Source of the DNA: Panax quinquefolius
Lineage: Eukaryota > Streptophyta > Magnoliopsida > Apiales > Araliaceae
Assembly (NCBI GenBank): GCA_020205615.1
Contig: JAINUW010000512.1
Location: forward strand, 372,001-436,000
Reading direction: 5' to 3'
DNA length: 64,000 nt
Part shown: positions 5,768 to 64,000 of the stretch, piece by piece
Layout: the number at the start of each line of letters is the position of its first letter
Numbering within the stretch: position 1 is the first letter of the stretch
Notes under the pieces: generated by a model
Databases searched by the model: none
Seen by the model: the letters and a program-made list of their open reading frames with translations, nothing else
Told to the model about the DNA's origin: nothing
Program-made: the position numbers and the translations under genes

Positions 5768-5915
5768 ATCAAATATTCATCTTTGCACTACTGGGCCAAA
5801 GATATTCATCGATTAAGTCATGTTCATCTAAACACTGTTCATCTTTGCACTACTGGGCCAAAGATATTCTTGAAATCATTCATCTTTGCACTCTGAGCCA
5901 AAGATATTCAATAAT
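5768..5915 (-). repeat. GGCC-loop hairpin array in LTR A (3 units)
   Basis: Three copies on the minus strand of ATCTTTG-(GGCCCAGTAGTG type loop)-CAAAGAT, each a 7-bp stem. They lie downstream of the TATA box, so they would be in the transcript. See the same structure in C, D, F and G. Confidence 0.75.
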
Positions 5916-9679: not shown

Positions 9680-9935
9680 ACCCCTGCACTATGGCCAAGG
9701 ATATTCTTTAGTATCACAACCACAAATTATCCATGCACTACGGGCCAAGGACATTCGTGTATTCATCAATGGTCATGATCATGCCAACAACTATCCATCA
9801 ATGCACTATGGGCCAATGAGGACTTTTACCACATCATTTGTAACATTACGGTCGTGATTATACCGAATAATCCCTGGTCATAATCATACCAAGTCCATCT
9901 ATGCACTACAGGCCACAGATGACTTTCAAAAAATA
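9680..9935 (-). repeat. Hairpin array in LTR B
   Basis: Four to five units on the minus strand with the loop GGCC.(A/G)TAGTGC. Stem variants include TCATTG/CATTGA and GTCATCTGTG/CATAGATGGAC. There is also one ATGATTATGACC / GGTATAATCA hairpin (about 9890-9845). Confidence 0.7.
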
Positions 9936-15655: not shown

Positions 15656-15657
15656 TT

Positions 15658-15675
15658 TGGTATCAGAGCTTGGCT
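15658..15675 (+). other. Primer-binding site, initiator tRNA-Met, copia element
   Basis: TGGTATCAGAGCTTGGCT, an exact match of the first 12 bases to the complement of the initiator tRNA-Met 3' end, 2 bases after the LTR. Confidence 0.95.
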
Positions 15676-15719
15676 CTACTTATCTTGGTCTTAAAGGTGA
15701 CTTGTAGGGAAAGATTATG

Positions 15720-17692: not shown

Positions 17693-18575
17693 GGCGACTA
17701 AAACTCTATTACAAGAAAGAAAAGTCGCCAAAGAAATTTTGGGCCGAAGCTGTAAGTACATCGTGTTATGTTTTAAATAGAGTAATCATTCGTCCTATTA
17801 TTTTGAAAACACCATATGAACTTTTAAATAATAAAATTCCCAACATAAGTTATTTCAAAATATTTGGTTCTAAATGCTTCATTTTGAATACAAGTGACAA
17901 TTTGGGAAAATTTGATGCTAAGTTATATGAAGGAATATTTATTGGTTATTCTCAAAATAGTAAGGCCTATCGCATCTTTAATATTAAAAAGTCATGTGTG
18001 GAAGAATCTGTTCATATTACTTTCAATGAGACTAACAATGATCTTCCAAAAAAAAGTGAAGATGATGCAGGTAATTTGGAGATAGTCAACATTTCAAATG
18101 AAACCAAAATGAACAAAAGCAGAGACCGAATGAACAAATTCAAAGAACTTTGAAATGAATGATCAAAGCATGAACATGAACACGAAGATTTGCGAGGATC
18201 TTTAAAAATGAGTCTAATGATCAAGAAGAAGTTATGCATAATATCCAAATGCCAAGAACAGCTAGATACATCAAGAATCATCCTCCAGAAAAATATTATT
18301 GGAGATATCAATAAAGGTATAACTTCTGAGGAGAGGTTTACAAAATCACATGCATTCTCTCGCATTTTTGTTACGAGTTGAGCCAAAGAATGCAAAGGAT
18401 GCTATAATTGATGAGAAGGCGGCTATTGGCAATGCAAGAAGAACTTCAATAATTTGAGAGGTGCCAAGTATGGGAACGTATATCTCCTCCCAAAGATGTT
18501 TCCATCATTGGTACAAAATGGGTTTTCAAGAACAAACATGATGAGCACAACACAATCATTCGTAACAAAGCTAGA
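17693..18575 (+). pseudogene. Copia integrase C-terminus and linker, frameshifted
   Basis: An open stretch at 17803-18153 carries the integrase C-terminal (GKPY-type) region: KTPYELLNNKIPNISYFKIF, then GSKCFILN and YEGIFIGYSQNSKAYRIFN. The link from the catalytic core (17693-17802) and the acidic linker to RT (18154-18480) are in other frames. The start of RT is recognisable at 18505-18575 ([12 protein letters not shown]). Confidence 0.85.
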
Positions 18576-19304
18576 TTGGTAGCTCAAGGATACAATCAAC
18601 AAGAAGGGATCGACTATGATGAAACTTATGCACCAGTAGCAAAGCTGGAATCAATTAGAATTCTGTTAGCATTTGCTTGCTACAAAAAGTTTAAGCTTCA
18701 TCAAATGGATGTAAAGAGTGCCTTCCTCAATGGATACATTAATGAAGAGGTATATGTAAAGCAACCTCCTGGATTCAAACATAAAAAGTATCCTAATCAT
18801 GTGTACAAGCTAAAGAAAGCTCTTTATGGCTTGAAACAAGCTCCAAGAGCTTGGTACAAAAGATTGAGTAAGTATCTCTTATCAAATGGGTTTGTTAGAG
18901 GTAAGATAGATTCTACATTGTTTATTAAGCATAAAAATGCCGATATTATTATTGTTCAAATATATGTAGATGATATAATATTTGGTGCTACTAATGATTT
19001 CCTTTGTGAGTGGTTTTCCAAGTGCATGCATAAAGAATTTGATATGAGCTTAATGGGTGAACTCAAATACTTTTTGGGACTTCAAATCAAGCAAACAAAG
19101 GACGAAATTTACATCCATCAAACCAAATACACAAAAGAACTACTCAAGAGATTTGGCTTTGAAGGATCTAACTCGAAAGGTACACCAATGAGCACATCAA
19201 TAAAACTCACCACTGATGAGAAAGGTATTGATGTAGATATAACAAAATATCGAGGTATGATTGGATGTTTACTATATTTAGCGCTTTTAGACCGATATAA
19301 TGTA
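18576..19304 (+). pseudogene. Copia reverse transcriptase domain
   Basis: 243 open residues. [20 protein letters not shown] is followed by [10 protein letters not shown] (first catalytic aspartate D45), [22 protein letters not shown], and YVDD at 130-133 (18963-18974). These residues polymerise cDNA and all are present. The frame breaks at 19280-19304, where the conserved (T/S)RPD-type block before RNase H is shifted, leaving RYNV and a stop. The downstream part continues at 19307. Confidence 0.93.
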
Positions 19305-19306
19305 TA

Positions 19307-19900
19307 GTGTTTGTCTCATGTGCAAGGTTTCAAGCTAAACCAAAAGAATCACACTTAAATGCTGTTAAAAGGATTTTGAAATATTTAAGTGGTACAATAA
19401 ATTTAGGGTTGTTTTATCCAATTTCCAATCATTTTGAACTAATTAGCTATTCAGATGCTGACTATGCAGGATGTCAAATTGATAGAAAAAGTATGAGTGG
19501 TGCTTGTACTTTCTTGGGACAAAGTCTCGTGTCATGGCATAGTAAAAAGCAAACCTCAGTGGCTCTTTCAACTACCGAGGGTGAATACTTAGCTGCAGGA
19601 AGTTGCTGTTCACAAATTTTATGGATGAGACAAACTCTATGTGATTTTGACATATTATGTGATTGTGTGCCTATTTATAGTGATAATTCAAGTGCTATAG
19701 ATATATGTAAAAATCATGTATTACATTCACGTACAAAGCATATAGAAGTTAGGCATCATTTTTTATGAGACAATGTTTCAGAAGGTTTAATAAAATTAAT
19801 TTTTATTCCAACTGAAAATCAAATTACAGATATTTTTACTAAACCTTTGAGTGAAGATAGATTTTGCATGTTACATAGAGAACTTGGGATATGTACTATA
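19307..19900 (+). pseudogene. Copia RNase H domain
   Basis: The open frame to 19768 contains KRILKYLSGTINLGLFY, the first catalytic aspartate in YSDADYAG, the glutamate in STTEGEYLAAG and the next aspartate in YSDNSSAI. It ends with a TGA at 19766-19768, in RHHFL, where relatives have an arginine codon; CGA to TGA is the change expected from deamination of a methylated CpG. Beyond it the same frame continues to DIFTKPLSEDRF at about 19850. RNase H removes the RNA template during cDNA synthesis. Confidence 0.9.
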
Positions 19901-20293
19901 TGATATTTTTTATCCTAATATTGCATGTATATCGTTTTAACTATTATTAATTAGGATAATTATGTTTTCGGCTGGTCACTTAATTTATGGATGCGAGAAT
20001 CAAGGAATATATCATAATTAGTTTTGGAAACCGAAAAGACCGGTCGGCTGAAAGATTTATTGGGAGACGTATGTGTATATGCATCTTATCATTATTTTTT
20101 AAAAATTGTAAAGACGAGTCAGATATGTTTCTTGGGAAACGTAAGGTTTTGGGAGACGTACGAATGTGAAAGATTTCATGATGCATGTATTCACTTTTAT
20201 ATACTTTGTATCTTTCCACTCATTTCTATTCTCTGATTTTTACTCTCTCTTCTTACGCCTCATCTAGTCTTCAACTGAACTCTTTCATCACCA

Positions 20294-21976
20294 TGAAAAC
20301 ACGTACGAACAAAAGATCACTTATCGATTATGATGATGAACATACCACAGTTCCTCCCCACTCCACTGCCGGACCATCTCGCCGAAAAAAGAAAATGAAG
20401 AGGGATGTGTCGTCAAAGGAAGAGTATTTGGAATCTTCGGCGTCTGATGCTTCCACTTTTAGTCCGTCACTGACGAAATCCACCGGACCCTCTAGGCGAC
20501 GTCAGACTCAGTCTTCCAAGCCGGAAGTTTCACCTTCTCCTATCTCGGTAAACCCTACTCTGTCTTCTGATCTGCCTGACAATTTCTTTAGGAGTAATGC
20601 TTATGAGGTACGTTTTAAAACTGTCATTTTTCCAAAATAGTTGGTTTATGAAAATCAATGGATCAAAATCTTTTTCATGAGTCTCCTTTGAAAAAATTTG
20701 TTTAGGTCTTGTGGTATCTCTTCCATGCTCTTTCCTTCTTCTATTGCATATCCCAGATTAGTTCAACAGTTCTATACTAATCTAGAATGTCATGGGGAGT
20801 TTTATACTTCATTTGTTAAGGGAAAGTCTTTGTATTTCACTGTCATGGACTTCGGTAGCATTTTAAACATTCCATTTACTGGTGATTGTCCATTTACTCG
20901 AAAAGGAGCTGTTCATTCCCCTTTTTCTCCTTTGGAATAATTAAAAATTGTCATGGATAATCCCTTGTTGAGTGATGTTTTTACTCCAAAAACTGTCGAT
21001 GTCTCTCCCCTTGCTTGTGTGATTCATCATCTTGTTCGGTTTAATCTTTTACCTCGATTAGGTAGTAGTGCTAATTTTACTTACCAGGATTTAATCATTG
21101 TTTCCATGATTTTAAAAGGTTTGTCTTTTAATTTAGCCCAAATGTTGCTTTATCAAATGACAAGTTGTCTGAGAAAAACAAAGACTTGTTTGCCATATAG
21201 TGCTACTCTCACCACTTTCTTCAATCACTTTAAAATATCCTTTGAAAATGAACTCTCTGTTGTGGTGAATGAGTCCTTCAGTGTCAACACTTTAAAGCTT
21301 TCTCGTATCACTTTAATTGATGGTCAATTTGTTCGTCTTACTTCTGAGAATTCTGCTCCTCCAATATCAATTCCCTCATCTTACATTCATTTCATAATCA
21401 ATCTTCTTACGAAATAATTGACATGTTAAAAGCTGGTGCAAGAGTAATCAAGAAAAAAAAGTTGGTGTGGTATCGGCCTTAACACCCGTATGTCTATGTT
21501 GGAGAAAGGCAAATTGCCTTTGGGTGCTCCCGAGATTAACAAAATGTATAATAATCTTGAAGACGAGTTTATTGACTTCTGAGCGAGGTTTTGAGTACGC
21601 AAACCACTTTGCTTTAGCGAGAAGTTATGCTGAAGGCTTAATCAAAATTCCTGTCAGTTAAGTCAGGAGATCAAGTTTGTCAGTCATCAGGTAGGAGAAT
21701 TGGCCGAGTTTATGTCTACCCGTTTTAATGATGTGGGATCGAAGCTCCATATGTAGCGTAAACATTCTACAGTTATGGAATGGGTTCACTGCAATTGGTT
21801 GGCCGAGTATCAAGGCGAATTCCTTGACGTGCCCTTACCCCCTGGAACTTTCATTCCAAGACCTCCTCAATTTGCTACTGATTTTACCCTTGCTGAGAGG
21901 ATTCACCGGGAACAACATCGTCCTTAATTCACTAAGCGTGATGCTCGGCATGCGGCGTGGTGGTAGACCTCATTGA
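20294..21976 (+). pseudogene. Extra ORF between pol and 3' LTR (plant retrotransposon accessory protein, broken)
   Basis: Starts at MKTRTNKRSLIDYDD. It has an N-terminal low-complexity part rich in S, P, T and K (about 115 residues), then a globular part in pieces at 20698-20940 (LVQQFYTNLECHGEFY, VKGKSLYFTVMDFGSILNIP) and 20953-21417 (HHLVRFNLLPRLG, FTYQDLIIVSMILKGLSFN), and a C-terminal helical piece near 21660-21760. The globular part resembles the 'putative plant transposon protein' domain seen in extra ORFs of plant retrotransposons; this is family recall, not a search. Breaks are a TAG at 20638, a frameshift near 20690, a stop at 20938 and others. Its place matches the env-like ORF of SIRE elements, but no signal peptide or membrane segment is apparent. 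Confidence 0.7.
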
Positions 21977-21999
21977 TGGCTCTTTTCCTTTTTGTTTGA

Positions 22000-22341
22000 T
22001 GACAAAGGGGGAGAATTTTGGAAATTATTTTGGGGTTATTTTTAAAGACTTAAGTTTTAAAATTTTATGTTGGTTTTGGTTTGGTGTGTTTCACCAAAAA
22101 GGACTTATGTTTAATTTGAGTTTTTAAATATTTGATATATTTGCAGTAATATGTTGATATTTGATGAACTAACAATTACAGCAGGTAACAAAATTACTTA
22201 AAATTGAATTTCACATTTCAGTATCCTGAAATGTTATTGGTGCATAGATTTAGGGGGAGTAAATTTATGTTATGCATTTATTCAGGGGGAGTTTATGAGA
22301 CTTAAACAATTTTGGGTTGTCATCATCAAAAAGGGGGAGAA
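22000..22341 (+). other. Polypurine tracts before the copia 3' LTR
   Basis: The functional tract is AAAAAGGGGGAGAA at 22328-22341, abutting the LTR. Three more GGGGGAG copies lie upstream at about 22007-22013, 22251-22257 and 22286-22292. The PPT primes plus-strand synthesis; the upstream copies could be extra primers or remnants. Confidence 0.85.
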
Positions 22342-23849
22342 TGTTGACTTAGTCATATTCTAGCCTTATGTTTTGATAATGAAATGTTCAAGTACTAAAT
22401 TGTTTTATGATGTTTCAGGTATTTGTTGATAAAAGAATGTTGGTGGAATCTTCAAGTGAAGGAAGAAAGTTTTCTTTTTCTAGGAGAAAAATGTAAGATT
22501 AATTGCATAATAATTGAATTTTCATTTAAAGGCTCTAGGACATTATTTGCATTATTATTATACGTCTTAGATGAAAAATGTTTTTAAATGATTTTATGAA
22601 AAATGTATTATCCGTGTTTAGCATGCAAATTATATTTAATTCACACACTTGGATTACATGTGCATATATAGCTAAAAAGGTGGATTGTGATATGTATGCA
22701 TGTAATCATGATTTCCTAGAATAACTAAAGGATGGCGACTAGACTTTTGTTGCGTATGCGGGTCTCAAGGAATGATAATGATTATCTTGGATATTGGGGT
22801 AACCTTGAGTATTGGAAAAAGGAAAAAGACTGTTACACCTTTTGGTGTCTTACGCCACTTGGAAATAGAGAAAGATAAAGTCAAAGTTATTTCTTGAAAG
22901 TGGGTTATCTACATAAAGGGTTGGTTATATTTATCTCAAACACTAAATATAAGCCTGGTTTGTTAGTTGGATAAGTATTACCTTTGTCGTTGGAGTTGTA
23001 TACCATTGAAATTTTGAATAAACAAGACTTATCCTTATTAACGGTAATATTATATGGGCTATAAATTAGTGTTTGCATATCTTGAAAAATACAGAACTCA
23101 CGAATTATACTTGCACTGATTATTATTATAAAGCAATCGATTTTGTTCAAGTGCAATTCTTGAGAAGCTAAGCGAGTTTAATTTTGGTATTATTTGAGGT
23201 GATATTGGTGAAGAAATTAATTGCTTATTTTGTGCTACTTGATCATTGCATATAGTTGAGCCTTTAATTGTTAAATTGATTATTCTTGCATTGATCATAG
23301 ACCTCTATATTGTATTGATTTTTCTATTGTTAGACTAAGTGTAGTCTAAAGGTTTTAATCCTGGTGGATTAGAAAAGTAGGTTACAAAAAGGGTTCGAGG
23401 AAGCAAAGGTGCTTGAAGGGTGCATAGGTGCACAAGGAGCAAGAGAGCTCAAGGGAAATTAATTGTTTATTAATTTTTGAATCTGTTGTGTAATCTGTAT
23501 TTATTTATAAAGAAATAAATAAAGTGAGTCTCCAATACTAGTTGGTATTGGACGTGGACTAGGCTATTATCATATAGGGTAATAGTTGAACCACGTAAAA
23601 AATCTTGGTGTTGATTTTAGTATTTGCTTTACTTTAAAATCACATAAGTTAATTAATTTTCTTAATTTGATTACTTGCATTATATTTAGATAATTCTTTA
23701 ACATCAAGTATTTTATTCAAAAGGCTATATTAATTGATGAATCGATTTCAATCATTTTAGTAGCCTAAAATTAATAACTTTTAAAAGTTGGTCATAGATT
23801 GCTCTACACTTTTTCAACCCCCTTCTAAGTGTGCCTAGTTAAAATTTCA
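22342..23849 (+). repeat. 3' LTR of the copia element
   Basis: TGTTGACTTAG...AAAATTTCA, 1508 bp, directly followed by TTACT, the copy of the target duplication. Confidence 0.95.
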
Positions 23850-23871
23850 TTACTTTAGTGCATAAAATTAA

Positions 23872-33357: not shown

Positions 33358-34519
33358 TGTAAGACCCCAACTTTTTATTAATAAAATTGAATTTCCTCTA
33401 ATTATTATTGTGAATAATTAGGTGTTAATTTGATATAATGCTTTAGTTATGGGTGAAATGTGTAACATTTGCAAAATAAGTAAGTGGTTATAAAATATTC
33501 ATTGTCGGGGAATATTCGTTTGGTCGTGGAATATTCTTGCTGTCGGGGAATATTCGTACGATGGCGCAGCCATTTGTGGGCCCCATAACAGAAAATGGTA
33601 GGATGAAGAAAATGACAAGTTTGAGTTTTTACAAATAACGACATAGTTATTCTGAATTAACTTTGTTGGAATACTAAATTGGTTAAAATCTGATGTCTGG
33701 CGTGGTTGATAGTAGTACACTATATTGCACAGTATTTTTGAATTATTGATTCTTACGTAAGAAAGCACTACTCAATAATTGTTACAGTAATTACTGTTCA
33801 GTATTTTATTTTATTAATTCAATAATTGCTACGTTGATATTTTATATTATTGTTGTTTCAATAATTATCACTACACAATATTTTCCATTATCAGATCAAT
33901 AATTCATATTATTTGAATAATATTATTAGATATCATTATTGGCAATGTTTAAGGAAGTTCTATCTAGAAAAGGGGTTTGGTCACCTAATTGCGCGCTAGT
34001 AAGGAGAAATCCTTATCAGAAAGCCCCCTCTTTCCTGAGAACGACCTGGTTGTCATAATTGTGATTCTGTAATATTATTTGTGAATAATTAATTATTCAT
34101 TTATATGATAAGAAAATATTTATTTTATATGGAAATAAATGAAGGAATTAATGTTGATATGTTTTATCAGTATTTTGTCAGAATGGAGGTATTAAAAATC
34201 ATCCGTATGTGGATTTCGGGCATTTTCTGTTTCGAATTTGGAAAAACTTTCTTCTACAAAGTTGTAGAGAATTAAATTTCCTATGGAATAAACATAAAAT
34301 TCATATTTTTTTGATAAAAGGGCTATTTATTATGAATTATTGAAGTTGCTGATTATTGTTTAAATTTAAAAGCGTTTTGAAATTTTCTAGAATGGGTGGG
34401 CCCTACTTTTGGTTGGTGAGAAATGTCTAAAGTTTTATTTCAAAAATGGTGTGCGTGAATAGTAATAGATAAAGCCATCGAGTGACGAGTTAATCTGCTT
34501 TGGCGTTCTAAGCATTTTT

Positions 34520-34529
34520 CTATAAATAG
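34520..34529 (+). promoter_or_regulatory. TATA box of LTR C
   Basis: CTATAAATAG followed by GTGCTTAG, as in LTRs A and F. Confidence 0.65.
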
Positions 34530-34789
34530 GTGCTTAGTTAAATTGAAAATCACCGAGAATCATAAGTTTTCTCTCTATATTATCGGCGTATTTTGTGAGT
34601 GTTTAGATACTTTGAGAGTTGCTATTTAGTGCAAGTTTCCTTGACGTTATATATCGATATTTAGAATGTAAGTACTATTCTTTTGATGTAAGGGATGTTA
34701 TTTTCTTCGTAAATGATATTATTTCGTTCAATATCATTATGCTGGAATATTGATATGAATTTTATTGTGAATTTTTTACCTTTTCATGT

Positions 34790-35030
34790 CGAGGTTACTA
34801 TTCATGTATACGGCACTATTCATAAATACGGTACTATTCATGAGTACTATTCACGAAGTATGATTTTTCTTATGGAATTTTTTACCTTTTCATGTTGGGG
34901 TTACTATTCACGTATATGGCACTATTCATGTGTACGACACTATTCATAAATACGACACTATTCATAGAAAAGTCTTTGATTGTATCCATGTCTATTCACA
35001 AATATGACACTATTCACAAATAATGATATT
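34790..35030 (+). repeat. TATTCA minisatellite in LTR C
   Basis: About ten copies of (G)(G/A)CACTATTCATAAATACG-type units of about 18-20 bp, in two blocks separated by a repeat of GGAATTTTTTACCTTTTCATG. Confidence 0.85.
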
Positions 35031-35224
35031 CATGTCTATTATGGTTACTATCTTTGATTGTATCCATGTTTTGATCTTCATTCTTGAATTTTACTCCACT
35101 ATGGTTTATTACAGAGTATTTTTGAACTTGGATTATCTAAAGTACGAATCCCTAATTTTTGTTCTTTTATCTCACTAGATACGTTTCTTTAAAATATTTT
35201 TCATCATCCTCAGTCCTAAATGGT

Positions 35225-35385
35225 GATATAACTGAATATCTTTGGCCTGTAGTGCAAAGATGAATGATTATCTGATGAATATCTTTGGCTCGTAGTGCAA
35301 AGATAGACAAGTGTTGAGATGAACATGTCAACTGGTGTTACAAATGAATATCTTTGGCCTATAGTGGAAAGATGAATATTTGATT
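35225..35385 (+). repeat. GGCC-loop hairpin array in LTR C (3 units)
   Basis: ATCTTTG-GCCTGTAGTG-CAAAGAT and two variants (loops GCTCGTAGTG and GCCTATAGTG). Each is an exact or near-exact 7-bp stem. Confidence 0.8.
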
Positions 35386-35937
35386 TAAGATGTATATTGA
35401 TTGATGTTACAGGGATAAAATATTGATGATAAACTTTTAAATTCATAGATGATAGTAGATTTCATTCTCTACTTAAATTTTTTAATGAATTGTTATTTTC
35501 GCTGCGAATATTGATCTAAAACTGGTTGTCCATTATATTTTATCTGATTTATTGAAGGCTAACGATAATTTGTTGTACATTATCTCAGTCATAATATTTT
35601 TTACAGGGCTAGTTGAGCTCACCCTTTCCCTTTTTGTTCCATTTTTCTTCTCAGGAGGCGAGAATTTAGCGAGAACTAGTCGGGATGTGGAGTGATGGGT
35701 CCAGACAGTTGTTTTAGCAGTCCTCACTATTTTATAAAATAGTGTATCAATAATTATAATGAGGACTTATTTGAGTTTGAATACTGTCTAGAAGAAAATA
35801 TTTGTATTTAAACTCATAGCATATGTGTTGTCGTATTTTGCACGACAATTGTAATAATGAAGTTGTAGTTGTTTTCTGTACCATGTATTTGGTGACTCAG
35901 AATGTGTTGTGTGGACCTATTTTGGGGGCGTCATAGT

Positions 35938-35954
35938 TGGTATCAGAGCTTAGG
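35938..35954 (+). other. Primer-binding site, element C
   Basis: TGGTATCAGAGCTTAGG, exact initiator tRNA-Met complement in the first 12 bases. Confidence 0.95.
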
Positions 35955-38648: not shown

Positions 38649-38658
38649 CTATAAATAG
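38649..38658 (+). promoter_or_regulatory. TATA box of LTR D
   Basis: CTATAAATAG followed by AAGCTCATTCCTTCATT, shared with the B and G LTRs. Confidence 0.65.
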
Positions 38659-39477: not shown

Positions 39478-39735
39478 TTGAAAGTCATACGTGGCCTATA
39501 GTGCATAGATGGACTTGGTATGATTATGAAAGCGAGGATTATTTGGTGTAATCATGGTAGTAATGTTACAAATGATGTGGAAAAAGTTCTCGTTGGCGTG
39601 TAGTGCATTGATAGGCAGTTGTTGGCATGATCATGAACATTGATGAATACGAATATCCTTGGGCGTAGTGCATGGATAATTTGTGTTTGTGATACTAATG
39701 AATATCCTTGGTAGTAGTGCGGGGATGATGTGGAT
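39478..39735 (+). repeat. GGCC-loop hairpin array in LTR D
   Basis: Four units: AAGTCATACGTG/CATAGATGGACTT, a CTCGTTG/CATTGATAG unit, ATCCTTG/CATGGAT and ATCCTTG/GCGGGGAT, around loops of the GGCC.GTAGTG type. A second hairpin type (ATGATTATGA...GTGTAATCAT) lies at 39520-39558. Confidence 0.75.
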
Positions 39736-40247: not shown

Positions 40248-40264
40248 TGGTATCAGAGCTTAGG
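40248..40264 (+). other. Primer-binding site, element D
   Basis: TGGTATCAGAGCTTAGG, exact initiator tRNA-Met complement in the first 12 bases, 2 bases after the LTR. Confidence 0.95.
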
Positions 40265-44619: not shown

Positions 44620-45065
44620 ATATAGGAGATCATGTGTTGTTATGTGTTGCTCCATGGAAAAGAGTTACGAGATTTGGAAAGAGAGGAAAGCTCAATCCTC
44701 GATCGAGTAGGAACTGTGGCCTATAGACTCGCTTTACCGCCAAGTATGTCTTGTGTTCATAACGTTTTTTACATATCCATGTTACGTAAATATGTGGAAG
44801 ACTCGAACCACATTATTGAGTTAGAACCAGACGAAATAGCGGAAGATTTGACATATGAAGAGGTTCCTATTCAAATCTTGGATAAGAAGGAACATATTCT
44901 ACGCTCCAAGGTTATACCTCAAGTTAAAGTTTTGTGGAGAAACCACGATGTTAAGGAAATGACTTGGGAGTTAGAATCTGAAATGAAATCAAGGTATCCT
45001 TACCTCTTTGACATACCAGGTACGTACCCTAATTTTGAGGGTGAAATTTCACAAGAAGGGGAGGT
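44620..45065 (+). pseudogene. Element D integrase C-terminus with chromodomain
   Basis: After frameshifts, an open frame at 44632-45065 runs through LALPPSMSCVHNVFYISMLR, EVPIQILDKKEHILRSKVIP and VKVLWRNHDVKEMTWELESE to the terminal YPYLFDIPGTYPNFEGEISQ. The VKVLWRN.....TWE pattern is the chromodomain-like motif of Tekay-type chromoviruses, thought to bind modified histone H3. The stop codon is inside the first bases of the 3' LTR. Confidence 0.88.
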
Positions 45066-46059
45066 TGTAAGACCCCAACTTTTATGAATAAAGATGAATT
45101 TTCTATAAATATCATTTTTGAATATTATGGAATGAATTTGATATAATGTTATAGTTGTGGGTAATATTTATAAATTTTGCAAAGTACGAAAGTTATTATA
45201 TAATTTTTGATTGGTCAGGGAATATTCGTTTTAACAGGAAATATTCGTACAACGGCACAATCATTAGTGTACCCCACAACTGAATTATTGTCGGATTGAG
45301 AAAACTACAAAAATACTTTATGAAAATAATGGCGGAAGTTTCTTCGTTAAGCTGTTGAAACACCGGTGTTAAAAAAAATAATAATCTGGCGTAGTTACTT
45401 GCGATAGTAGCACGGTATTGATTATTGATGTTTATGTGATAAGTCACTCAGTTTTGTTTTATTGGTATTATTAATGTAATAAAATAGAAAAGCTTTTTAT
45501 ATAAAAGCAGAATACTTTTATAAAGTTATTCGTTTTATTAGGCTAATAGTAATACCTTTTATATAAGCGAGAATACTTTAATAAAGTTATATGTTTTATT
45601 AGACAATAATTAGAATATATTATATTTTATTATGCATAGTGTTTTGCATAGTACAAGATAGTGTTTGTATAGTAAAATCTTTTATAAAGTTATTCAGGTT
45701 TATTAGATTATAAATAGAATATATTATATTTTAATTAAAAGATTTTGCTTTAAATATGGACCGTCAGATTAAAGTAAATCAATCTGGACCGTTCATGAGT
45801 TAGTTATTATGCAGTCCATTTTTCTATAAATAGAAGTTTATTCCTTCATTATTTCTTACGAATTCACTGAAACTCTAGAGAGAGAAATTATGGAGAAGCT
45901 ATAGAAAAGTATTCTGCTCCTTTCCTACTCTTATATTCAGTTTCTTTTACGGTAAGGGATATTATTTGTTGTACTCGTTAGGGGTATTCCTTCTTTCTTA
46001 TTGGTGAAATTCTTTTGTTATTCCATTCTTTATTATTCTGTTGGAATAACCTGTATACG
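45066..46059 (+). repeat. 3' LTR of element D, first part
   Basis: TGTAAGACCCCAACTTTTATG as in the 5' LTR, interrupted after GGAATAACCTGTATACG by element E. It continues at 62728. Confidence 0.92.
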
Positions 46060-48236
46060 TGTTGCCTCTTTTTTACAACTAACAAAAGAGCTCTAACTCA
46101 TGCAAGCGTCATGCGTCAACAAGTAATCTGAGCAAGTAAAGTATCGATCCCACAGAGAAAGTTGTTTAACTTAAACTACTATTCATTAATTAAATCACTA
46201 TATTTATATGCTCACACTATGGATTAAACTTGGTTTGTTCTTGAACTATAAATAACAACTAAAACAATAAAAATGATATAATAAGCGATATTGGAACTAA
46301 TGGGATTATAACCCGTTTAATATTTCATTCACTCGCCACTATCATTGCGACTTGTTCACATATCATAGGAAAGTAGCCAAGAGCACTAAAAGAGTATTAG
46401 CCATTTTTCAATGCACTAAGACCTACTTACACAAGCATCCATGAGATGATAGACTCTATGTAATCATCAATATAACCAACGTCACTATATGTCTACATGT
46501 GAAATTGCAACCATATTGATTTCAAATTTAAGCTCTTATTCTAACTTATACGGTGAAACAAAGATATATATCTATACAGTTCACGAAATATATAAGCCAT
46601 ATAACATAGCCCTATATGTAAGACCCCAACTTATTATTAATGAAATTTATTTTTCTCTATTTATTATTTTGAAATAGTAAGGGTTGATTTGATTAATGTG
46701 GATAGTTAGGGGTAAAATCATAAATATTTCAAAATAAGCTAAAGTGGTTATAAAATATTCATTGTTGTCGGAGAATATTCGTTTGGTCGTGGAATATTCG
46801 TCTTATCGGGGAATATTAAATGCGACTCAGTAGCGACCATGTGTGGGCCCCATGTGAAAGCGATTGGATGAAAAACGACAAATATAAGGTGTTTAAAAAT
46901 AATCAGGCGTAGTTATTTCTGATTATCTTGTTAAAATACCCGGTGGGTAAAACACGATGAGATTACGGTATTGCACCAATTATTGATTCTTACGTAAAAA
47001 GGCACTACTCAATAATGGTTCTGATAATTCTTTATTCGGTATTTTATTGAGTTAATAATTGTTTGCGTTGATATTTTATATTCTTTGTTGTTTTGATAAT
47101 TGTTATTACACAATATTTTTCATTATCGAAGAAATAATTCATATTATCTGAATAATATTATTAGATAACATTATTGGCAATGTCTAGAAAGTTACATCTA
47201 AGGAGAGGTTTGGTCACCTAATTGCGTGCAGTAGAAGAAATTCTTATTGAAAGCCCCTCTCTCACGAGGCTGCTTTGGTTGTCGATATTGTGATTCTCGT
47301 AATATTATTTGTGAATAATTAATTATTGATTCATATGATGAGAAAAATATTGATTTTATGTGGATATAGATGGAGAAAATTTTTATTGTGACAATTGTTG
47401 AAAATTGAAATTTTATCTTTTTCTGATAAAATAATTCATTTAAATATATTATTATATGTTAATAATATAATAATGGTGATATTTTTACAACGAATGTGGG
47501 ATATATGAGTATACGAGGATGAAGAGTATTTTTGTTGCAATAAATATTTAAAACATGTTAAACATGTCGGTGGACCCCATTTATTGACTGAAATTTGATT
47601 ATAGCCTGTAAAATCGCCCGTTTGTGGATTTCGGTCAATTTCTATTTGGAATTTGGAAAAACTTTCTTCCGCAAAGTTGTAGAGAATTGAATTTCCTATA
47701 AAAACTCGCGAGATTCGAATTTTCTGATGAAAGGGCTATTTATTATGAATTATTGAAGTTCCGAAGCTCCGAAATAATTGATTTTTGGAAGTTTAAAATA
47801 TTTAAAATTAGAAAAACGTTTTTCTTACTTTTTTCTAGAATGTGGCATGTGTTTGATGGCTGAAATCAGATTCTAGGCATGTGTAGAAAATTTATATAAT
47901 TATATTATTAATTTATTAAATTTTCGCTTTGGTGTTCTAGCAATTTCCTATAAATAGGGTGCTTAGGTTAGAATTGAAAATCACACCAGAACTCAAGTTT
48001 TCTCTCTCTATATTATCGGCGTATTCTTGTGAGTATTTTGAGTATACTTTGAGTATTGCTATACGATTGCAAGTCCAAGTCATAGCCTTTATATCCAGGT
48101 GTTTCAAATTTTAAATCTTGATCTTTCGAGGTAAGGGATGTTATTTTCTTCTCAAATGATATTATTTCTTCAATATCATTATCTTTGAAATATTGGTTGA
48201 AACTTTTATCAAATTTGGAACTTTTTCATGACGGGA

Positions 48237-48420
48237 TTACTATTCATGAGTTACTATTCACGAGTTCTTATTCATGAGTTCTTATTCATAAAAGTTCTTA
48301 TTCACGAAGTCTTATTAAATGAAAGCGTGAAGATGTTTTTGTGGAATTTCTATCTTTTGGTGTGAGATTCTTATTCACGTATATGACACTATTCACGATA
48401 TCTGACACTATTCATAGAAA
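48237..48420 (+). repeat. TATTCA minisatellite in LTR F
   Basis: Repeats of TTATTCATGAGTTCTTATTCACGAG type, homologous to those in A and C. Confidence 0.8.
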
Positions 48421-48639
48421 ATAAAATTTCTTCTTTTGTCCAAAATATCTATTCTGGATACTAGCTTTGATTGTATCCATGTTTTGATCATTCTTGAATT
48501 TTACACCCCTATAATTATTTTTGAGGTATTTTTGGACGTGGATAAAACAAAGTACGAATCCTTAATCCTTAATCCTTGTCATTTTGTTTCTTTGGATTCG
48601 TTTCTTTTAAAATATTTTTCATAATCCTCGGTCTTAAAT

Positions 48640-48800
48640 GATGATATTATTGAATATCTTTGGCACAGTAGTCAAAGATGAATGATTTCTAAAGAATATC
48701 TTTGGCCTGTAGTGCAAAGATGAAGCAGTGTTTAGATGAACATGAATTAACTTATGAATATCTTTGGCTGTAGTGCAAAGATGAATATGTGATTCGAGAT
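48640..48800 (+). repeat. GGCC-loop hairpin array in LTR F (3 units)
   Basis: ATCTTTGGC...GTAGTGCAAAGAT three times. The first unit has a shortened loop (CACAGTAGT). Confidence 0.8.
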
Positions 48801-49511
48801 ATATATTGATTGATGTTACGGGGATAAAAGATAGAGCGGTGAACTTTTAAATTCATACATAGAAGATAGTAGTTTGCATTCTCTACTTAACTCTTCTAAT
48901 GAATTATTATTTTCATTGCGAATATTGATTTAAAATTTGTTGTCTATTGTATTCTATTAAATTTTTCCTGTTGAAGACTAACGGTAATTTTTGTTGTATA
49001 TTATCTTAGTCATAATATTCTTTCTTGAGCTAGTTGAGCTCACCCTTTTCCTTTTGTTCCATTTTTCTCAAGAGGCGAGAATATAAGCGATGCAGTCGGG
49101 GTATGGAATGAAGGTTCTAGAGAGAGTTGTTTAGTAGTCCTCACCATTTTTGTAAAATAATGTATCAATAAATGTGATGAGGATTTCTTTAAGTATAGAT
49201 ATTGTCTAGAAGATAATATTTGTATTTAAACTCACAGTTTTACTGTTATAAAAATAAAGTTGTAGTTGTTTCTGTACCATGTATTGACAACTCAGAATGG
49301 GTGATGTATACCTATTTTGGGGGCGTCACACTATATACGTATACTATCATGATTACAGTCCATATTTGCATGTTCATTGTCAATTCCATACAAATACTGA
49401 AATGAATGGTGATCAAGCATTCATGTATGCAAAACAATCATGAAAGACATCCCATATCATATACAAAACAACCCAGCATTTAAGTATGCAATCAAACTAC
49501 ATAATAAAATC

Positions 49512-50944: not shown

Positions 50945-51469
50945 TTACCTTTCCTTGACCAAAGTATATATCTTCTTTGCCATACCGCCATCTATCCGTG
51001 GCGATAATCGAGTAATAAGATCAACCTCCAATACACCTGCAACTTTGGTTTGTGGCATTCGGGATGTAGGATTCTGAAAATCATTCGATGCCATTGTCTC
51101 GATAAGATCATAGGCTTCCTCATAGTTCTTTGGCCATAATGCACCTCCCGCAGCTGCATCTACAATCGGTCTCGACTGCCATCCCAGTCCATTATAAAAC
51201 GTGTTGATTACCATCCAATCTGGCATACCGTGATGTGGGCACTTTCTCAGCATTTCTTTGTATCTCTCCCATGCTTCATATAACGACTTGCCCTGTTGTT
51301 GCTCAAACTGAGAGATAGTTGTCCTCATCATGGCAGTTTTCGCCATTGAGAAGAACTTAGCTAAGAATTTCTGTGCTAAATCCTCCCATGTAGTTATAGA
51401 TCCTGCTGGCAGAGAAAAAAGCCAACTTTTCGCTTTATCCCTCAATGAAAATGGGAACAACCTTATTCT
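50945..51469 (-). pseudogene. Element E gag capsid core, separated by G
   Basis: 171 open residues (51460-50945): MFPFSLRDKAKSWLFSLPAG, then LYEAWERYKEMLRKCPHHGM, FYNGLGWQSRPIVDAAAGGA and YEEAYDLIETMASND. This is the Athila/Tat-type retrotransposon gag. Its N-terminal half is at 60525-60860: the frame EDAI|RIRLFPFSL joins exactly across element G when one AATAG copy is removed, so gag was open here before G arrived. Confidence 0.92.
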
Positions 51470-52389
51470 AATAGTGTGAGACCCCAGATTTTATCAATAA
51501 AGATTTAAATTTTGTCGAAATAATTTTTAATATTATGGTGTGAATTTGAGATAATATTATAGTTGTGGGTAGTATTTATAAATTTTGCAAAGTATGCAAG
51601 TGGTTATATTATATTCGATTAGTCGGGGAATATTCGATTTAGCGGGGAATATTCAGACAATGGCTCAATCATTGGTGGACCCTGCGTAATTATTGTCGGA
51701 TCGAGAAAACGAAAAAATATTTTATTGAAATAACGGCGGAAGTTTTCTGCAGTAGTTACTTGTTGAACTACTTTCGGTAGTAAAAGTACGATAATAAGTG
51801 TGGTTGCATAGTAGCTGCGGTATTGATTATTGATGCTTATGTGAGAAGTCACTCGGTTTGATTCCATTATTGTCGATTAATAATATGAATTATTATAGCG
51901 ATAATGACGTTTTGTTTTATTCAGTATTATTAACGTAATAAAACGAAACATCTTTTATATAAAATAGAATACTTTATTAAAAGTTATTCTATAAATAGAA
52001 TATATTATATTTTATTACGCATAGTGTTGCATAGTGTTTTTGCATAGTGTTTTGCATAGTATTGCATAGTGTTTGCATAGTAAAATGTTTTTATATAAAT
52101 AGAATATATTATATTTTATTTAAAAATTTTTCTTTAAATATGGACCGTCGATTAAAGTAAATTAACTGGACCGTTCATGGATTAATTCTTATGCATTCCA
52201 TTTTCCTATAAATAGAAGCTCATTCCTTCATTATTTTCTTTACTTAATTCATTGAAACTCTGAGAGAGAAATTATAGAGAGAAGTTTATAGAGAAAGTTA
52301 TAGAAAGAAGAAGAGTATTCGCTACTTCACTACTTCTATATTCAGGTTCTTTTTACGGTAAGGAGTGTTATTCCTTCTTCTTGAAGAGA

Positions 52390-52890
52390 ACTTCATTATT
52401 CCATTCATTATTATTACATTGGAATAACTCGTAAAAGTGGCATACCCTATACATAACTTTGATACGCTGTGGATACCCTATACTTGGTGAAATCCTTATG
52501 TTATTCCATTGCTTATTATTCATTGGAATAACTCAGATATCATGGTTTACCCTATACTTGGTGACATTCTTCTATTATTACATTTGGAACATCCATACGT
52601 GTGTGTTTTACATAGGACCGGGTTCTGCTTTTTATTATTACATTGGAACATCTCATGCATGTGTGTTTTACAGGACTGGTTAAAATCTTTATCATTCATT
52701 GGAATATCCTATCATGTGTTTTACACCGGATCCGGTTCCATCTTTATTATTCTGTTGGAACATCCCGCCGGTGTGAATTTCACACGAATTGGTTCCGTTA
52801 TTATTATTCTACGTTGAATAACTCGTCATGGCATGGCAATCGCATGCATGGTGATTTCTTTTGTTATTCCATTCTTTATTATACCCCGGT
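52390..52890 (+). repeat. Hairpin minisatellite in LTR G (5')
   Basis: Six or so 60-85 bp units, with TTATTATTACATTGGAA cores. GGTTC/GGAAC and TTATTCCA/TGGAATAA stem variants both occur. Confidence 0.85.
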
Positions 52891-53129
52891 TGGTTAAAAC
52901 TTTGACTTCTATACTCCATGAAATTAGTAGAATATCCTTGATATTTGCGTTTCATCCAAAGATCTTTTCATGGAAATATTCTTACGATCATTCTTGAATT
53001 TTACTCTCACTAAACAAAGATCATGTTGATAATTTGGACGTTAATAATTCATGGATTAAATAATTCTTGAACTTGTTTTATTGAATTATTATGTCATATC
53101 ATCATCCTCATGTTATATTATGTTATATT

Positions 53130-53345
53130 TGGCTTACGTGCATAGATGAACTTAGTATGATTATGACTGAGGATCATTCGGTATAATCATGACTTGATAT
53201 AAATGATGTGACAAAAGTCCTCGGTGGCTTTGTAATGCGTTGATGGATAGTTTTTGGTATGATTATGACCGGGGTGATTCGGTATAGTCATGACCATTGA
53301 TAATTTGATGAAAATCCTTCGACCGTGAATGCGGGGATGATTAGA
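53130..53345 (+). repeat. Hairpin arrays in LTR G (5')
   Basis: GGC.loop units plus two ATGATTATGACCG...CGGTATAATCAT hairpins with 12-13 paired bases (about 53157-53194 and 53257-53294). Confidence 0.8.
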
Positions 53346-53882
53346 TGTGGTGGTTTATTTATTGTCGAGTCAAATGATAAAAATTGATGAAAACCTTTTA
53401 AAACCTAAAAGATAGTAGACTTTATTCTCTACTTGACTCTTTTAATGGATTGCTAATTCCGCTGCAGTTAAACTGGTTGTCTATTGTATTTTATCAGTTT
53501 AACACTGTTGAAGGCTAATGATAATTTATTCTGCATTATCTTAGTCATAATATTTCTTACTGGGCTAGTTGAGCTCACCCTTTCTTTCACCGTTTCTTCG
53601 TGAAATGAGAACATAAATTGGGACGAGTCGGGGAACGGAGTAATGGTCCAGAGGATAGCATTAGTAGTCCTCACTATTCTGTGAAATAGTGTGATAATAG
53701 TTGTAATGAGGACTCCTTTTGAGTTTGTATAATATCTAGTAGACAATATTTGTATTCAAACTCACAGTTTATGTCGTATTTTTTTACGCACAGTTAGGTT
53801 AGTAAGTTGTATTTGAATTTATGTACCATGTAAGTGGCGACCCAAGATGGGTGACGTATACCTAATTTTGGGGCGCCACGGT

Positions 53883-57080: not shown

Positions 57081-57960
57081 GAAAACATGGGGATATTCTT
57101 GAATCTTGGATAAATTATATTATAAATGTTTAATATTTATCCTTTATCTCATTTGATTGATTCTTTATATCATTATCCCTATGTTTATATTATGTTGAAA
57201 GTCATTTTGTGGCTCAGTAGGTGCATAGATGGACTTGGTATGATTATGACCACGGATTATTCGGTATAATCATAACCGTAAATGAATACACAATTATCTT
57301 TGGCCATAGTGCATGGATAATTTGTGGTCGTGATACTAATGAATACACAATTATCTTTGGTAGTAAAGCAAAATGGATAATTTGTGGTCGTGATCTTAAT
57401 GAATATCCTTGGCACGTAGTGCGGGGATGATTCGATGATGTGGATTAATTATTGAAATTTGAGTCTCAGAACAATGAAATATTAATTCATGGATGCGTTC
57501 AAAGTCATCGTGGCTTTCGTGCATAGATGGACTTGGTATGATTATGACGAGGGGTTGTTAAGTATAATCATAACCATAATTGAAAACTACTGATTATCTT
57601 TGGCCGTAGTGCATGGATAATTTATGGTCGTGATACTAATGAATATCCTTGGCTCAGTAGTGCGGGGATGATTCGATGATGTGGATTAATTATTGAATTT
57701 GAGTCTCAATGAATGAAATATTAATTCATGGATGCGTTCAAAGTCATCTGTGGCTTACGTGCATAGATGGACTTGGTATGATTATGACCAAGGATTGTTC
57801 GGTATAATCATAACCGTAATTGAAAACACGAATATCCTTAGCCAGTAGTGCATGGATAATTCATGGTTGTGATACTATTAAGTTTGAGTCTCGGTATTAT
57901 TGGTTTTCTGATTGTATATCTTTGGCCTGTAGTGCAAAGATGAATTGTTAATGAATATCT
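57081..57960 (+). repeat. Amplified LTR hairpin array inside element G
   Basis: Starts like the post-minisatellite part of LTR D (CTTGGATAAATT...TTATATTATGTTGAAAGTCAT), then repeats a unit of about 239 bp nearly three times (anchors GATGCGTTCAAAGTCAT at 57495 and 57733, first copy from about 57195). Each unit contains one AGTCATCTGTG/CATAGATGGACT hairpin, one ATGATTATGACC/GGTATAATCAT hairpin and two GGCC-loop hairpins. It joins pol tail sequence at about 58010. Confidence 0.85.
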
Positions 57961-58004
57961 TTGGCCGGATTGCAAAAATGAATTTAATGTTTTAAACGAT
58001 AAAG

Positions 58005-58085
58005 GTATTCAAGGTATCCTCATCTCTTTATCATACCAGGTACGTACCCTAATTTCGAGGGCGAAATTCCATAAGGAGGGGAGAT
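58005..58085 (+). pseudogene. Element G pol tail
   Basis: YPHLFIIPGTYPNFEGEIP then a stop, matching the last 27 codons of element D pol, followed by the short GAGGGGAGATTG tract before the LTR, which would serve as polypurine tract. Confidence 0.85.
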
Positions 58086-60519
58086 TGTGAGACCCCAGAT
58101 TTTATCAATAAAGATTTAAATTTTGTCGAAATAATTTTTAATATTATGGTGTGAATTTGAGATAATATTATAGTTGTGGGTAGTATTTATAAATTTTGCA
58201 AAGTATGCAAGTGGTTATATTATATTCGATTAGTCGGGAATATTAGGGTTTAGCGAGGGGAATATTCGTTTACTAACTACTCAATCATTGGTGGACCCCC
58301 TAATGTAATTATCATTTCGGATTGAGAAAGCGACAAAAATATTTTATTGAAATAACGGCGGAAGTTTTACTAGTGGTTCTTTGTTGAACTACTCGGTAGT
58401 AAAAGTACAAAGTAATAAGTGTGGTTGCGACAGTATAGCACGGTATTGATTATTGATGCTTATGTGAGAAGTCACCGGTTTGATTCCATTATTGTCGATT
58501 AATAATATGAATTATTATAGCGATAATGACGTTTTGTTTTATTCGTATTATTAACGTAATAAAATGAAACATCTTTTATATAAAATAGAATACTTTATTA
58601 AAGTTATTCTATAAATAGAATATATTATATTTTATTATGCATAGTGTTGCGTAGTGTTTTCAGATAGTGTTTTGCATAGTATTGCATAGTGTTTGCATAG
58701 TAAAATGTTTTTATATAAATAGAATATATTATATTTTATTTAAAAGATTTTTCTTTAAATATGGACCGTCGATTAAAGTAAATCAATCTCGACCGTTTAT
58801 GGATTAGTTACTATGCATTCAATTTTCCTATAAATAGAAGCTCATTCCTTCATTATTTTCTTACGAATTCATTGAAACTCTACAGAGAGAAATTATAGAG
58901 AGAAGTTTATATAGAGAAAGTTATAGAAAGAAGAAGAGTATTCGCTACTTCACTTACTTCTTATATTCAGGTTCTTTTTTACGGTAAGGGTGTTATTCTT
59001 TCTTCTTGAAGAGAACTTCATTATTCCATTCATTATTATTACATTGGAATAACTTTTGTAAAAGTGGCATACCCTATACATAACCTCGTGATACGGCATG
59101 TGGCATACCCTATACTTGGTGAAATCCTTATGTTATTCCATTGCTTATTATTACATTGGAATAACTTTGATAATGTGATTTACCCTATACTTGGTGACAT
59201 TCTTCTATTATTTTGTTGGAACATCACATGCATGTGTTTTTTACAGGACTGGTTCCGCTTTTTATTATTTACATTGGAACATCACATCTCGTGTGTTTTA
59301 CACCGGACCTGGTTAAAATCTTTATCATTACGTTGGAATATCCTATCATGTGTTTTACACCGGATCCAGTTCCATCTTTATTATTACGTTGGAACATCCC
59401 GCCGATTGTGAATTTCACCGACTGGTTCCGTTATTATTATTCTGTTGGAATAACCCGCATACGTCAAATACCGCATGCATGGTGATTTCTTTTGTTATTC
59501 CATTCTTTATTATATACCCAGTTGGTTAAAACTTTGACTTTATACTCCATGAAATTAGTAGAATATCTTTGATATTTGCGTTTCATCCGATATCTTTTCA
59601 TGGAAATATTCTTACGATCATTCTTGAATTTTACTCTGTAAAGCGATATCATGTTGATAATTTGGGACGTTAATAATTCATGGATTAAATAATTCTTGAA
59701 CTTGTTTTATTGAATTATTATGTCATTGTCATCATCCTCATGTTATATTATGTTATATTTGGCTTACGTGCATAGATGAACTTAGTATGATTATGACCGA
59801 GGATCATTCGGTATAATCATGACTTGATATAAATGATGTGACAAAAGTCCTCGGTGGCTTTTGTAATGCGTTGATGGATAGTTTTTGGTATGATTATGAC
59901 CGAGGGGTGATTCGGTATAGTCATGACCATTGATAATTTGATGAAAATCCTTGACCGCAGGGTACGGGGATGATTAGATGTGGTGGTTTATTTATTGTCG
60001 AGTCTCAAATGATAAAAATTGATGAAAACCTTTTTAAACCTAAAAGATAGTAGACTTTATTCTCTACTTGACTCTTTTAATGGATTGCTAATTAAGGCTG
60101 CAGATTAAACTGGTTTGTTTCATTGTATTTTATCGGTTTAACACTTGTTGAAGGCTAATGATAATTTATTCTCGCATTATCTTAGTCATAATATTTCTTC
60201 TTGGGCTAGTTGAGCTCACCCTTTCTTTCCTTATTCTCTTGAAATGAGAACATAAATGGACGAAGTCGGGAGCGGAGTAATGGTCCGAGAGGATAGCATT
60301 AGTAGTCCTCACTATTACGTGAAATAGTGTGATAATAGTTGTAATGAGGACTCCTTTTGAGTTTGTATAATATCTAGTAGACAATATTTGTATTCAAACT
60401 CACGGTTTATCGATCGTGCATACACGACGATTAGGTTAAGTAAGTTGTATTTGAATTTATGTACCATGTAAGTGGCGACCCAAGATGGGTGACGTATACC
60501 TAATTTTGGGGGCGTCACA
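58086..60519 (+). repeat. 3' LTR of element G
   Basis: TGTGAGACCCCAGATTTTATC...GGGGGCGTCACA, 2434 bp. TATA box at 58828-58837, donor-like ACGGTAAGGG at 58980-58989, minisatellite at 59015-59510, hairpins at 59755-59970. Very similar to the 5' LTR; many of the differences are short exchanges at C/G-containing spots. Confidence 0.93.
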
Positions 60520-62727: not shown

Positions 62728-64000
62728 CGGGATACCCTATACTTGGTGAAATTCTTCTGTTATTCCATTATTTATTATTCTGTTGGAACATCCTGTCTGC
62801 AGACGCTTTTACTTGGGACCGGTTCCATTCTTTATTATACATTGAAATATCACGTGCATGCGCTTTTACTATTTGGACTGGTTCCAATCATTATTATTCG
62901 TTGAATATACATTGGAATATGCGTTTACATGGGACCGGTTCCATTCTTTTTTATCGCTGGGACTGGTTCCATTCTAGTTCCGTTATTTATTATTCTGTTG
63001 GAATAACCTTCCTGTGCGGTCTATCGCATGCCTGGTGATTTCTTTTATTATTCAATTCTTTATTATACTCAGTTGGTTAAAACTTTGACTTCTATACTCC
63101 ATGAAATTAGTGGAATATCCTTGATATTTGCGCTTCATTCAGTATCTTTTCATAGAAATATTCTTCTGAGCATTCTTGAATTTTACTCTACAAAGAAGTA
63201 TCATGTTGACAATTTGGACGTTATTAGTTCCTGGATAAATTAATTCTTGAACTTGTTTTATTGAATTCTTATATCATTGTCATCATCCTCATGTTTATAT
63301 TTTGTTGAAAGTCATCTGTGGCCTGTAGTGCATAGATGGACTTGGTATGATTATCAGCAGGGATTATTCGGTGTAATCATGACCGTAATGTTACAAATGA
63401 TGTGGAAAAAGTTCTCATTGGCCCGTAGTGCATTGATGAACAGTTGTTGGCAAGATCATGACCATTGATGAATACACGAATATCCTTGGTTGTGGTGCAT
63501 GGATAATTTGTGTTTGTGATACTAATGAATATCCTTGGCCGTAGTGCAGGGATGATGTGGATTATTTATTAAGCCGAGTCTCAGCGATAAAAGTCATGAA
63601 AAACCTTTTAAATCATAGAAGATAGTAGATTTTATTCTCTACTTAACTCTTTTAATGGATTGCTTGTTCCGCTACAGTTACACTTGATGTTTGTTATATT
63701 TTATCAGTTTAACACTATTGAAGGCTAAGGATAATTTATTCTGCGTTATCTTAGTCATAATATTTCTTACTGGGCTAGTTGAGCTCACCCTTTCTTTCAC
63801 TGTTCTCTTCAGGAAATGAGAATATAGCTGGGACTAGTCGGGGAACGGAGTGATGGACTAGATGATAGTATTAGTAGTCCTCACTATTCTGTTAAATAGT
63901 GTGACAATAAATGTAATGATGACTTATTCTGATAGTGGATATTGTCTAGAAGATAATATTTATATTAAAACTCACAGCTCTCTTGTTGTATATTAAAGAT
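62728..64000 (+). repeat. 3' LTR of element D, second part
   Basis: Continues the LTR broken at 46059. Minisatellite at 62740-63070, hairpin array at 63300-63560, then the U5 end up to CTCTTGTTGTATATTAAAGAT, which corresponds to 40152-40172 of the 5' LTR. About 75 bp remain beyond the window. Confidence 0.92.
63300..63560 (+). repeat. Hairpin arrays in LTR D (3' copy)
   Basis: AAGTCATCTGTG-GCCTGTAGTG-CATAGATGGACTT (11 pairs and one bulge), then ATGATTATC...GTGTAATCAT, then three further GGCC/GGTT-loop units. This copy has better pairing than the 5' LTR copy at 39478. Confidence 0.8.

Follow-up and report, generated by a model that had tools for sequence, protein, structure and literature searches.

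The stem-loops of the retroviral psi signal are several leader hairpins with conserved loops. In yeast, the dimerisation site of Ty3 (DS/PAL6) is described as a short hairpin near the 5' end of the RNA with an apical palindrome, and localisation and packaging reportedly require both untranslated regions of this element (PMC11381356). For the TIPIRT leader hairpins of Ty1, it is reported that kissing loops drive dimerisation and packaging, as shown by compensatory mutations (PMC5454406). The hairpin arrays described here, found in the LTRs of American ginseng retroelements, resemble Ty3 DS/PAL6 in that the GGCC present in many ginseng loops is also a palindrome, of 4 nt. Unlike the tandem ginseng array, Ty3 has one site and, in contrast to the Ty3 palindrome, the ginseng GGCC is often altered and, in the LTRs of element G, absent. 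Whereas Ty1 has two hairpins with mutually complementary loops, the ginseng arrays carry several units with one common loop; CACTAC, the complement of the GTAGTG in this loop, was absent from B, D and G3 and occurred once in G5; in LTRs A, C and F, all its occurrences lay upstream of the TATA-like box. Similarly to psi, the arrays provide multiple leader hairpins, for which nucleocapsid binding is proposed here, but they differ from psi in lying inside an LTR of 2.3-2.8 kb, 690-790 nt before its end. By analogy with these systems, we tentatively propose that the arrays are cis-acting tandem RNA hairpins in the transcribed leader of a chromovirus, most likely for the packaging or dimerisation of genomic RNA, a reading to which we give a probability of roughly 0.4.

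The window, i.e. the whole stretch of 64,000 nt of Panax quinquefolius plant DNA that was analysed, contains many nested Ty3/gypsy elements with LTRs starting with TGTRAGACCCC. Ten ORF pieces were examined, and matches to gag, protease, reverse transcriptase and integrase were found among the coding pieces. Chromovirus features were present (integrase, LTRs and a primer binding site, PBS), the exact TGGTATCAGAGC primer site lying directly after two LTRs of the window, C and D; the chromodomain match was weak and below the curated cut-off. PgDel (Del/Tekay) is a chromodomain Ty3/gypsy family which is reported to dominate Panax genomes and to show structural variation in its LTRs; the chromodomain element PgDel1 was estimated to represent 34.5% of the P. 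quinquefolius genome, and the word 'hairpin' is absent from the main text of this study (PMC5567358). Judged by the clade named in the original prediction and by likeness to PgDel, the array-bearing elements would be chromoviruses of the Tekay/Del type, and we infer that they are PgDel. Genome-wide counts were made on 3,565,155,480 bases in 821 contigs of this one species; the P. quinquefolius assembly is reported as 3.57 Gb with a GC content of 34.11%, produced on a Nanopore platform (PMC8989883). The window also holds a Ty1/copia element at 14146-23851, which has 1.5 kb LTRs that are 96.2% identical, a long gag-integrase ORF and no match to the loop described below. An Rfam match to snoR71 (46.3 bits, gathering score 40) was found at 51225-51331, opposite a gag ORF piece at 50945-51490 (minus strand).

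The tandem hairpin arrays in these LTRs are real. Six of the eight LTR arrays listed in the original prediction were recovered by a loop scan; the scan missed the other two, in the LTRs of element G, and inspection of these diverged places by eye gave about three diverged candidate units at each (Table 1). A further array, in the internal region of element G, is made of about three tandem repeats of an alpha-to-delta block plus epsilon units, and is located directly upstream of the polypurine tract (PPT) and the 3' LTR of that element. A total of 84 array clusters came from the window together with 80 loci, after omission of two loci that overlapped. In 64 of these clusters the array was followed by the same LTR landmark; 6 clusters received the label pre-PPT, and 14, including some that were cut off, fell into neither class. 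The pre-PPT clusters were those of loci L024, L060, L071 and L080, that of the window and that of L045, which is doubtful. No description of such arrays was found in searches of an open-access literature collection. Searches of viral contigs gave neither a match to the pattern nor a relative of one protease piece.

Table 1. Arrays and associated features of the window, with the arms of the five hairpin unit types
Feature	Position	Strand	Arms (left/right)	Remarks
Array of alpha, beta, gamma and delta hairpins	63300..63560	+		LTR piece 62730-64000, putative remainder of element D 3' LTR
Array in element D 5' LTR	39478..39735	+		LTR 37904-about 40247; loop scan
Array A, three epsilon units	5768..5915	-		LTR 8000-about 5226; loop scan
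Array B, alpha-beta-gamma-delta	9680..9935	-		LTR 11715-about 9146; loop scan
Array C, three epsilon units	35225..35385	+		LTR 33358-35937; loop scan
Array F, three epsilon units	48640..48800	+		LTR 46617-49330; loop scan
Diverged array, element G 5' LTR	53130..53345	+		by eye; absent from loop scan
Diverged array, element G 3' LTR	59755..59970	+		by eye; absent from loop scan
Extra array	57152..57990	+		non-coding 3' end of element G internal region; absent from the original list
TATAAATA box, LTR D	38650..38657	+		offset 746; further TATA-like words also present in LTRs
Primer binding site TGGTATCAGAGC after LTR D	40248..40259	+		exact; second copy at 35938 after LTR C
Integrase C-terminal piece	44626..45087	+		weak chromodomain match (PF00385, 20.8 bits, under curated 25.1)
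Polypurine tract	58073..58084	+		precedes 3' LTR start (58086) of element G
Alpha type			ATCTGTG/CATAGAT	outer AAGTC/GACTT; bulge
Beta type			CTCATTG/CATTGAT	outer GTC/GAC
Gamma type			ATCTTTG or ATCCTTG/CATGGAT	outer ATT/AAT
Delta type			ATCCTTG/CGGGGAT	
Epsilon type			ATCTTTG/CAAAGAT	

The loop motif is real and very abundant. With at most one mismatch to GGCCNGTAGTG, the window contained 17 matches (7 exact) against 0.66 expected and a maximum of 3 in 100 shuffles; 16 of these matches lay within arrays, and the one at 41586 was without arms. Genome-wide, the exact loop was found 316,447 times (157,903 + 158,544), compared with 638 (311 + 327) for the reversed pattern, and one unit type with the loop centre left free was found 277,951 times, its reversed control giving 0. 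The description of the loop as nearly fixed did not survive this analysis: the canonical form, GGCC(T/C/A)GTAGTGC, was present in only 45 of 145 arm-anchored units of the commonest type, in which the length of the string from GG to C ranged from 10 to 16, the canonical length being 12. GG and GTAGTGC were well kept; the loop centre was variable.

This variability was compared between pairs of arrays. In 14 pairs that were 92-94% identical, differences amounted to 0.44 events per site at the loop centre and to 0.066 in spacers, and in 4 pairs that were more than 94% identical the values were 0.128 and 0.05, respectively. Stems varied less than spacers in this comparison, a difference that we discounted, since a stem was recognised by its matching arms in one of the two sequences compared. 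On the spacer tree, loop-centre changes were near those of shuffled labels in 3 of 4 units and fewer in one. Hairpin-linked hypermutation at the loop apex was considered and dropped after comparison of the element G LTRs (51475-53880 and 58086-60519) showed indels and clustered changes LTR-wide: the 121 difference blocks, spread along the whole LTR, corresponded to 94 indels or clustered multi-base changes and 27 single substitutions, a pattern unlike that usual in natural decay. The copia LTR pair was less extreme, with 46 blocks made of 26 single substitutions and 20 indels or clustered changes. Variation measured against the column majority, which differs from the pairwise apex rate, was 0.26-0.37 at CG/CHG sites and 0.17-0.19 at A/T sites; transversions at CG/CHG sites were up only 1.1- to 2-fold, and the CG/CHG comparison alone is not decisive. 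Based on the G LTR comparison, the CG/CHG sites and the Nanopore assembly, we read the variability of the loop centre as probably resulting mainly from decay of methylated C and nanopore basecalling error, and the differences between the element G LTRs may be long-read errors at sites of methylation. Caution is needed in reading frameshifts or loop variants of this assembly.

To describe the arms, 317 loop-selected candidate units from the window and 80 loci were collected, and 294 were kept after removal of 19 zeta-repeat look-alikes and 4 units found alone on their locus strand. Sixty-eight of 82 loci (L001-L008, L023-L082) had been picked because they surround an exact match to the loop on a single strand of one contig; the loop is therefore biased to its canonical form in this set, and the arms played no part in the selection. 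Five main clusters accounted for 238 of the 294 units. The original prediction that arms of differing sequence still pair was borne out by pairing in five types, except that some of the arms cited have T.T at the third pair (ATCCTTG/CATGGAT); this pair is frequently T.T, G.T or T.G in types other than epsilon. Another inverted repeat, zeta (GGTATGATTATGACC ... GGTATAATCAT and variants), was found between alpha and beta units at 9850-9890 (-) and 39518-39560 (+). Its arms were nearly invariant in a search requiring near-matching arms, and are thus uninformative on covariation.

Changes in both arms around the loop had been interpreted as the product of selection on RNA structure. Pairing was indeed kept beyond shuffled and slid controls: 90.2% of cells were paired in 171 distinct arm pairs of the five types, and the covariation score was 0.256, against a mean of 0.139 in shuffles that do not preserve relatedness (0 of 500 reached the score) and 0.115-0.144 in slid registers. 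Pairs with double changes (4) and extra pair types (14) showed no excess over shuffles, 216 and 108 of 500 reaching these numbers, respectively. The alternative that weighs most is descent: one ancestral palindromic unit would have been duplicated and would have diverged, its pairing reflecting recent descent and no RNA function. We consider this doubtful, although it has a substantial chance of being correct. Few unit types exist and most stem pairs lack covariation, as expected from descent; across 226 distinct rows, L4-R4 took rank 2 among 496 column pairs and led all cross-arm pairs, L8-R9 was weakly raised (rank 67 of 496) and the remaining stem pairs were low. This one pair carries most of the covariation signal, and the five types are few lineages with non-independent copies. 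That pair 4 takes three Watson-Crick forms depending on the type (T-A, C-G or A-T) speaks against descent alone.

Permutation of the right arms between types gave results on both sides. Among the five main types, the own right arms ranked first of 120 permutations, albeit narrowly (0.848, next 0.842), and duplex energy also put own partners first (-48.6, next -47.3), which is evidence against descent. A swap test with nine clusters, four of which are register-shifted epsilon variants, did not rank own partners first (68 of 362,880 permutations were at least as good), in agreement with descent.

At the level of individual variants the excess was slight, a further point in favour of descent. Copy counts gave 66 wobble-keeping and 24 breaking transitions, and double changes were pairing in 11 of 12. 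Among one-sided transitions found in at least 3 loci, pairing was kept by 6 variants (45 copies) and lost by 3 (10 copies); the 2 transversions shared to this extent were both broken (7 copies). Two-sided variants in at least 3 loci were pairing in 2 cases (11 copies) and broken in none: C-G to T-A at pair 5 (7 copies), and T-A to C-G at pair 2 (4 copies), where T.G was also seen. Both of these shared two-sided changes keep pairing, which counts against descent. Private variants were made of 14 pairing and 8 broken transitions, 13 broken transversions and 1 broken two-sided change; four register-shifted alpha units were left out of the variant counts. Genome-wide, pair 4 was T-A in 104,453 units, T.G in 8,013 and C.A in 1,422, a T.G to C.A ratio of 5.6 to 1 among copies that are not independent events; most T.G units were of the gamma form among the first 100 places listed. 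Spacer transitions matching the wobble-keeping and pair-breaking classes were 223:242 and 227:183, indicating that mutational strand bias does not explain the 5.6-fold excess, which counts against descent, though few lineages may explain it. The original interpretation is thus supported as far as pairing against the controls is concerned; the variant-level excess is small, and the pattern may be the product of descent of a few unit types rather than of selection.

Single units folded as expected. All eight that were tested, taken from outside the G LTRs, folded alone into the expected hairpin (z -0.25 to -2.06). For the whole array at 63300-63560, neither the sense fold (z +0.67) nor that of the other strand (z +0.01) had an advantage over shuffles, and some units yielded to longer-range pairings in its minimum-energy fold. 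Over 81 arrays, the mean z was -1.28 for the sense and -1.65 for the antisense strand; the sense strand was lower in raw energy in 79 of them, base composition being at least part of the cause. These ordinary folding energies are also in line with descent. Since single units fold and whole arrays are ordinary, local hairpins are favoured over one large compact fold. A search of the whole window found no Rfam family at gathering score in the arrays; with a lax threshold, two array regions gave weak matches only, that at 63250-63620 being a single unrelated one. A hammerhead or snoRNA reading, linked to CTGATGA and GATGA words near units, was rejected, the five C/D-box snoRNA matches at 35180-35460 having E values of 0.56 or worse.

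The units were located downstream of a TATA box, as predicted: TATAAATA with shared flanks was found in all seven LTRs scanned, with the arrays 3' of the box. TATAAATA comes in two forms, at offset 732-771 (B, D, G5, G3) or 1163-1381 (A, C, F), in LTRs that were compared unaligned. In the seven LTRs, array starts lay 690-1010 nt 3' of the box and 690-790 nt from the LTR end, not upstream of the TATA box, unlike U3 enhancer repeats. Judged by the TATA-like box and the PBS, and with a predicted start site, the array would sit in the 5' leader between promoter and gag. Because TATAAATA lies upstream of the arrays, transcription of the units is expected; this expectation is well founded, transcription from that particular box being deduced from sequence.

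The distance between the TATA-like box and the LTR end, approximately 1.2-1.8 kb, would also suit hairpins that act in translation from a long leader, by ribosome shunting or internal entry, or by hiding upstream AUGs. The right arm contains ATG in the commonest form of all five types, and plant pararetrovirus leaders and shunting are the subject of a review (PMC5902531). We nevertheless find a role in translation improbable, as the loop length is not in multiples of three and so gives no fixed short reading frame, and some elements have a further array at their 3' end. That the array works as DNA, providing repeated palindromic binding sites or a chromatin or cruciform element of the LTR, is very unlikely: many tandem repeats of LTRs serve as enhancers, but this array lies downstream of the TATA-like box, its arm sequence shifts while pairing persists, and the excess of T.G over C.A on the sense strand is not predicted by a double-stranded reading.

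Collectively, varying paired arms, an oriented loop motif, the leader position, repetition and an occasional second site fit an RNA hairpin read by a protein. In this favoured reading, each unit would display a GG..GUAGUGC loop on a stem of about 7 bp, which some types extend and interrupt by a one-base bulge. As the arms vary by type and pairing and the outer loop are kept, the recognised feature would be the hairpin shape and the loop rather than the arm sequence. The analogy with the Ty3 and Ty1 hairpins favours recognition by Gag or nucleocapsid, and we place translation control second among the functional choices. The most likely reader would be the Gag or nucleocapsid of the element itself, which may contact more than one loop on each RNA and thereby select genomic RNA or bring about its dimerisation; a second set of hairpins, just upstream of the polypurine tract in some elements, may be available at the other end of the RNA. 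We infer that the hairpins fold in cells, that their loop is recognised and that Gag has a role. A more elaborate version, in which many hairpin copies, present at both RNA ends in some elements, form a multivalent recognition array recruiting Gag by avidity, seems rather unlikely to us.

LTR retrotransposons represent a large share of plant genomes and, to our knowledge, their cis-acting RNA signals are little defined in plants. A repeated, easily spotted hairpin at a known position provides probing and binding assays with a concrete target, and can also mark LTR subfamilies. If the multivalent array reading is true, this motif, with approximately 316,000 exact loops in a single genome, would belong to the most abundant RNA motifs under selection in a plant.
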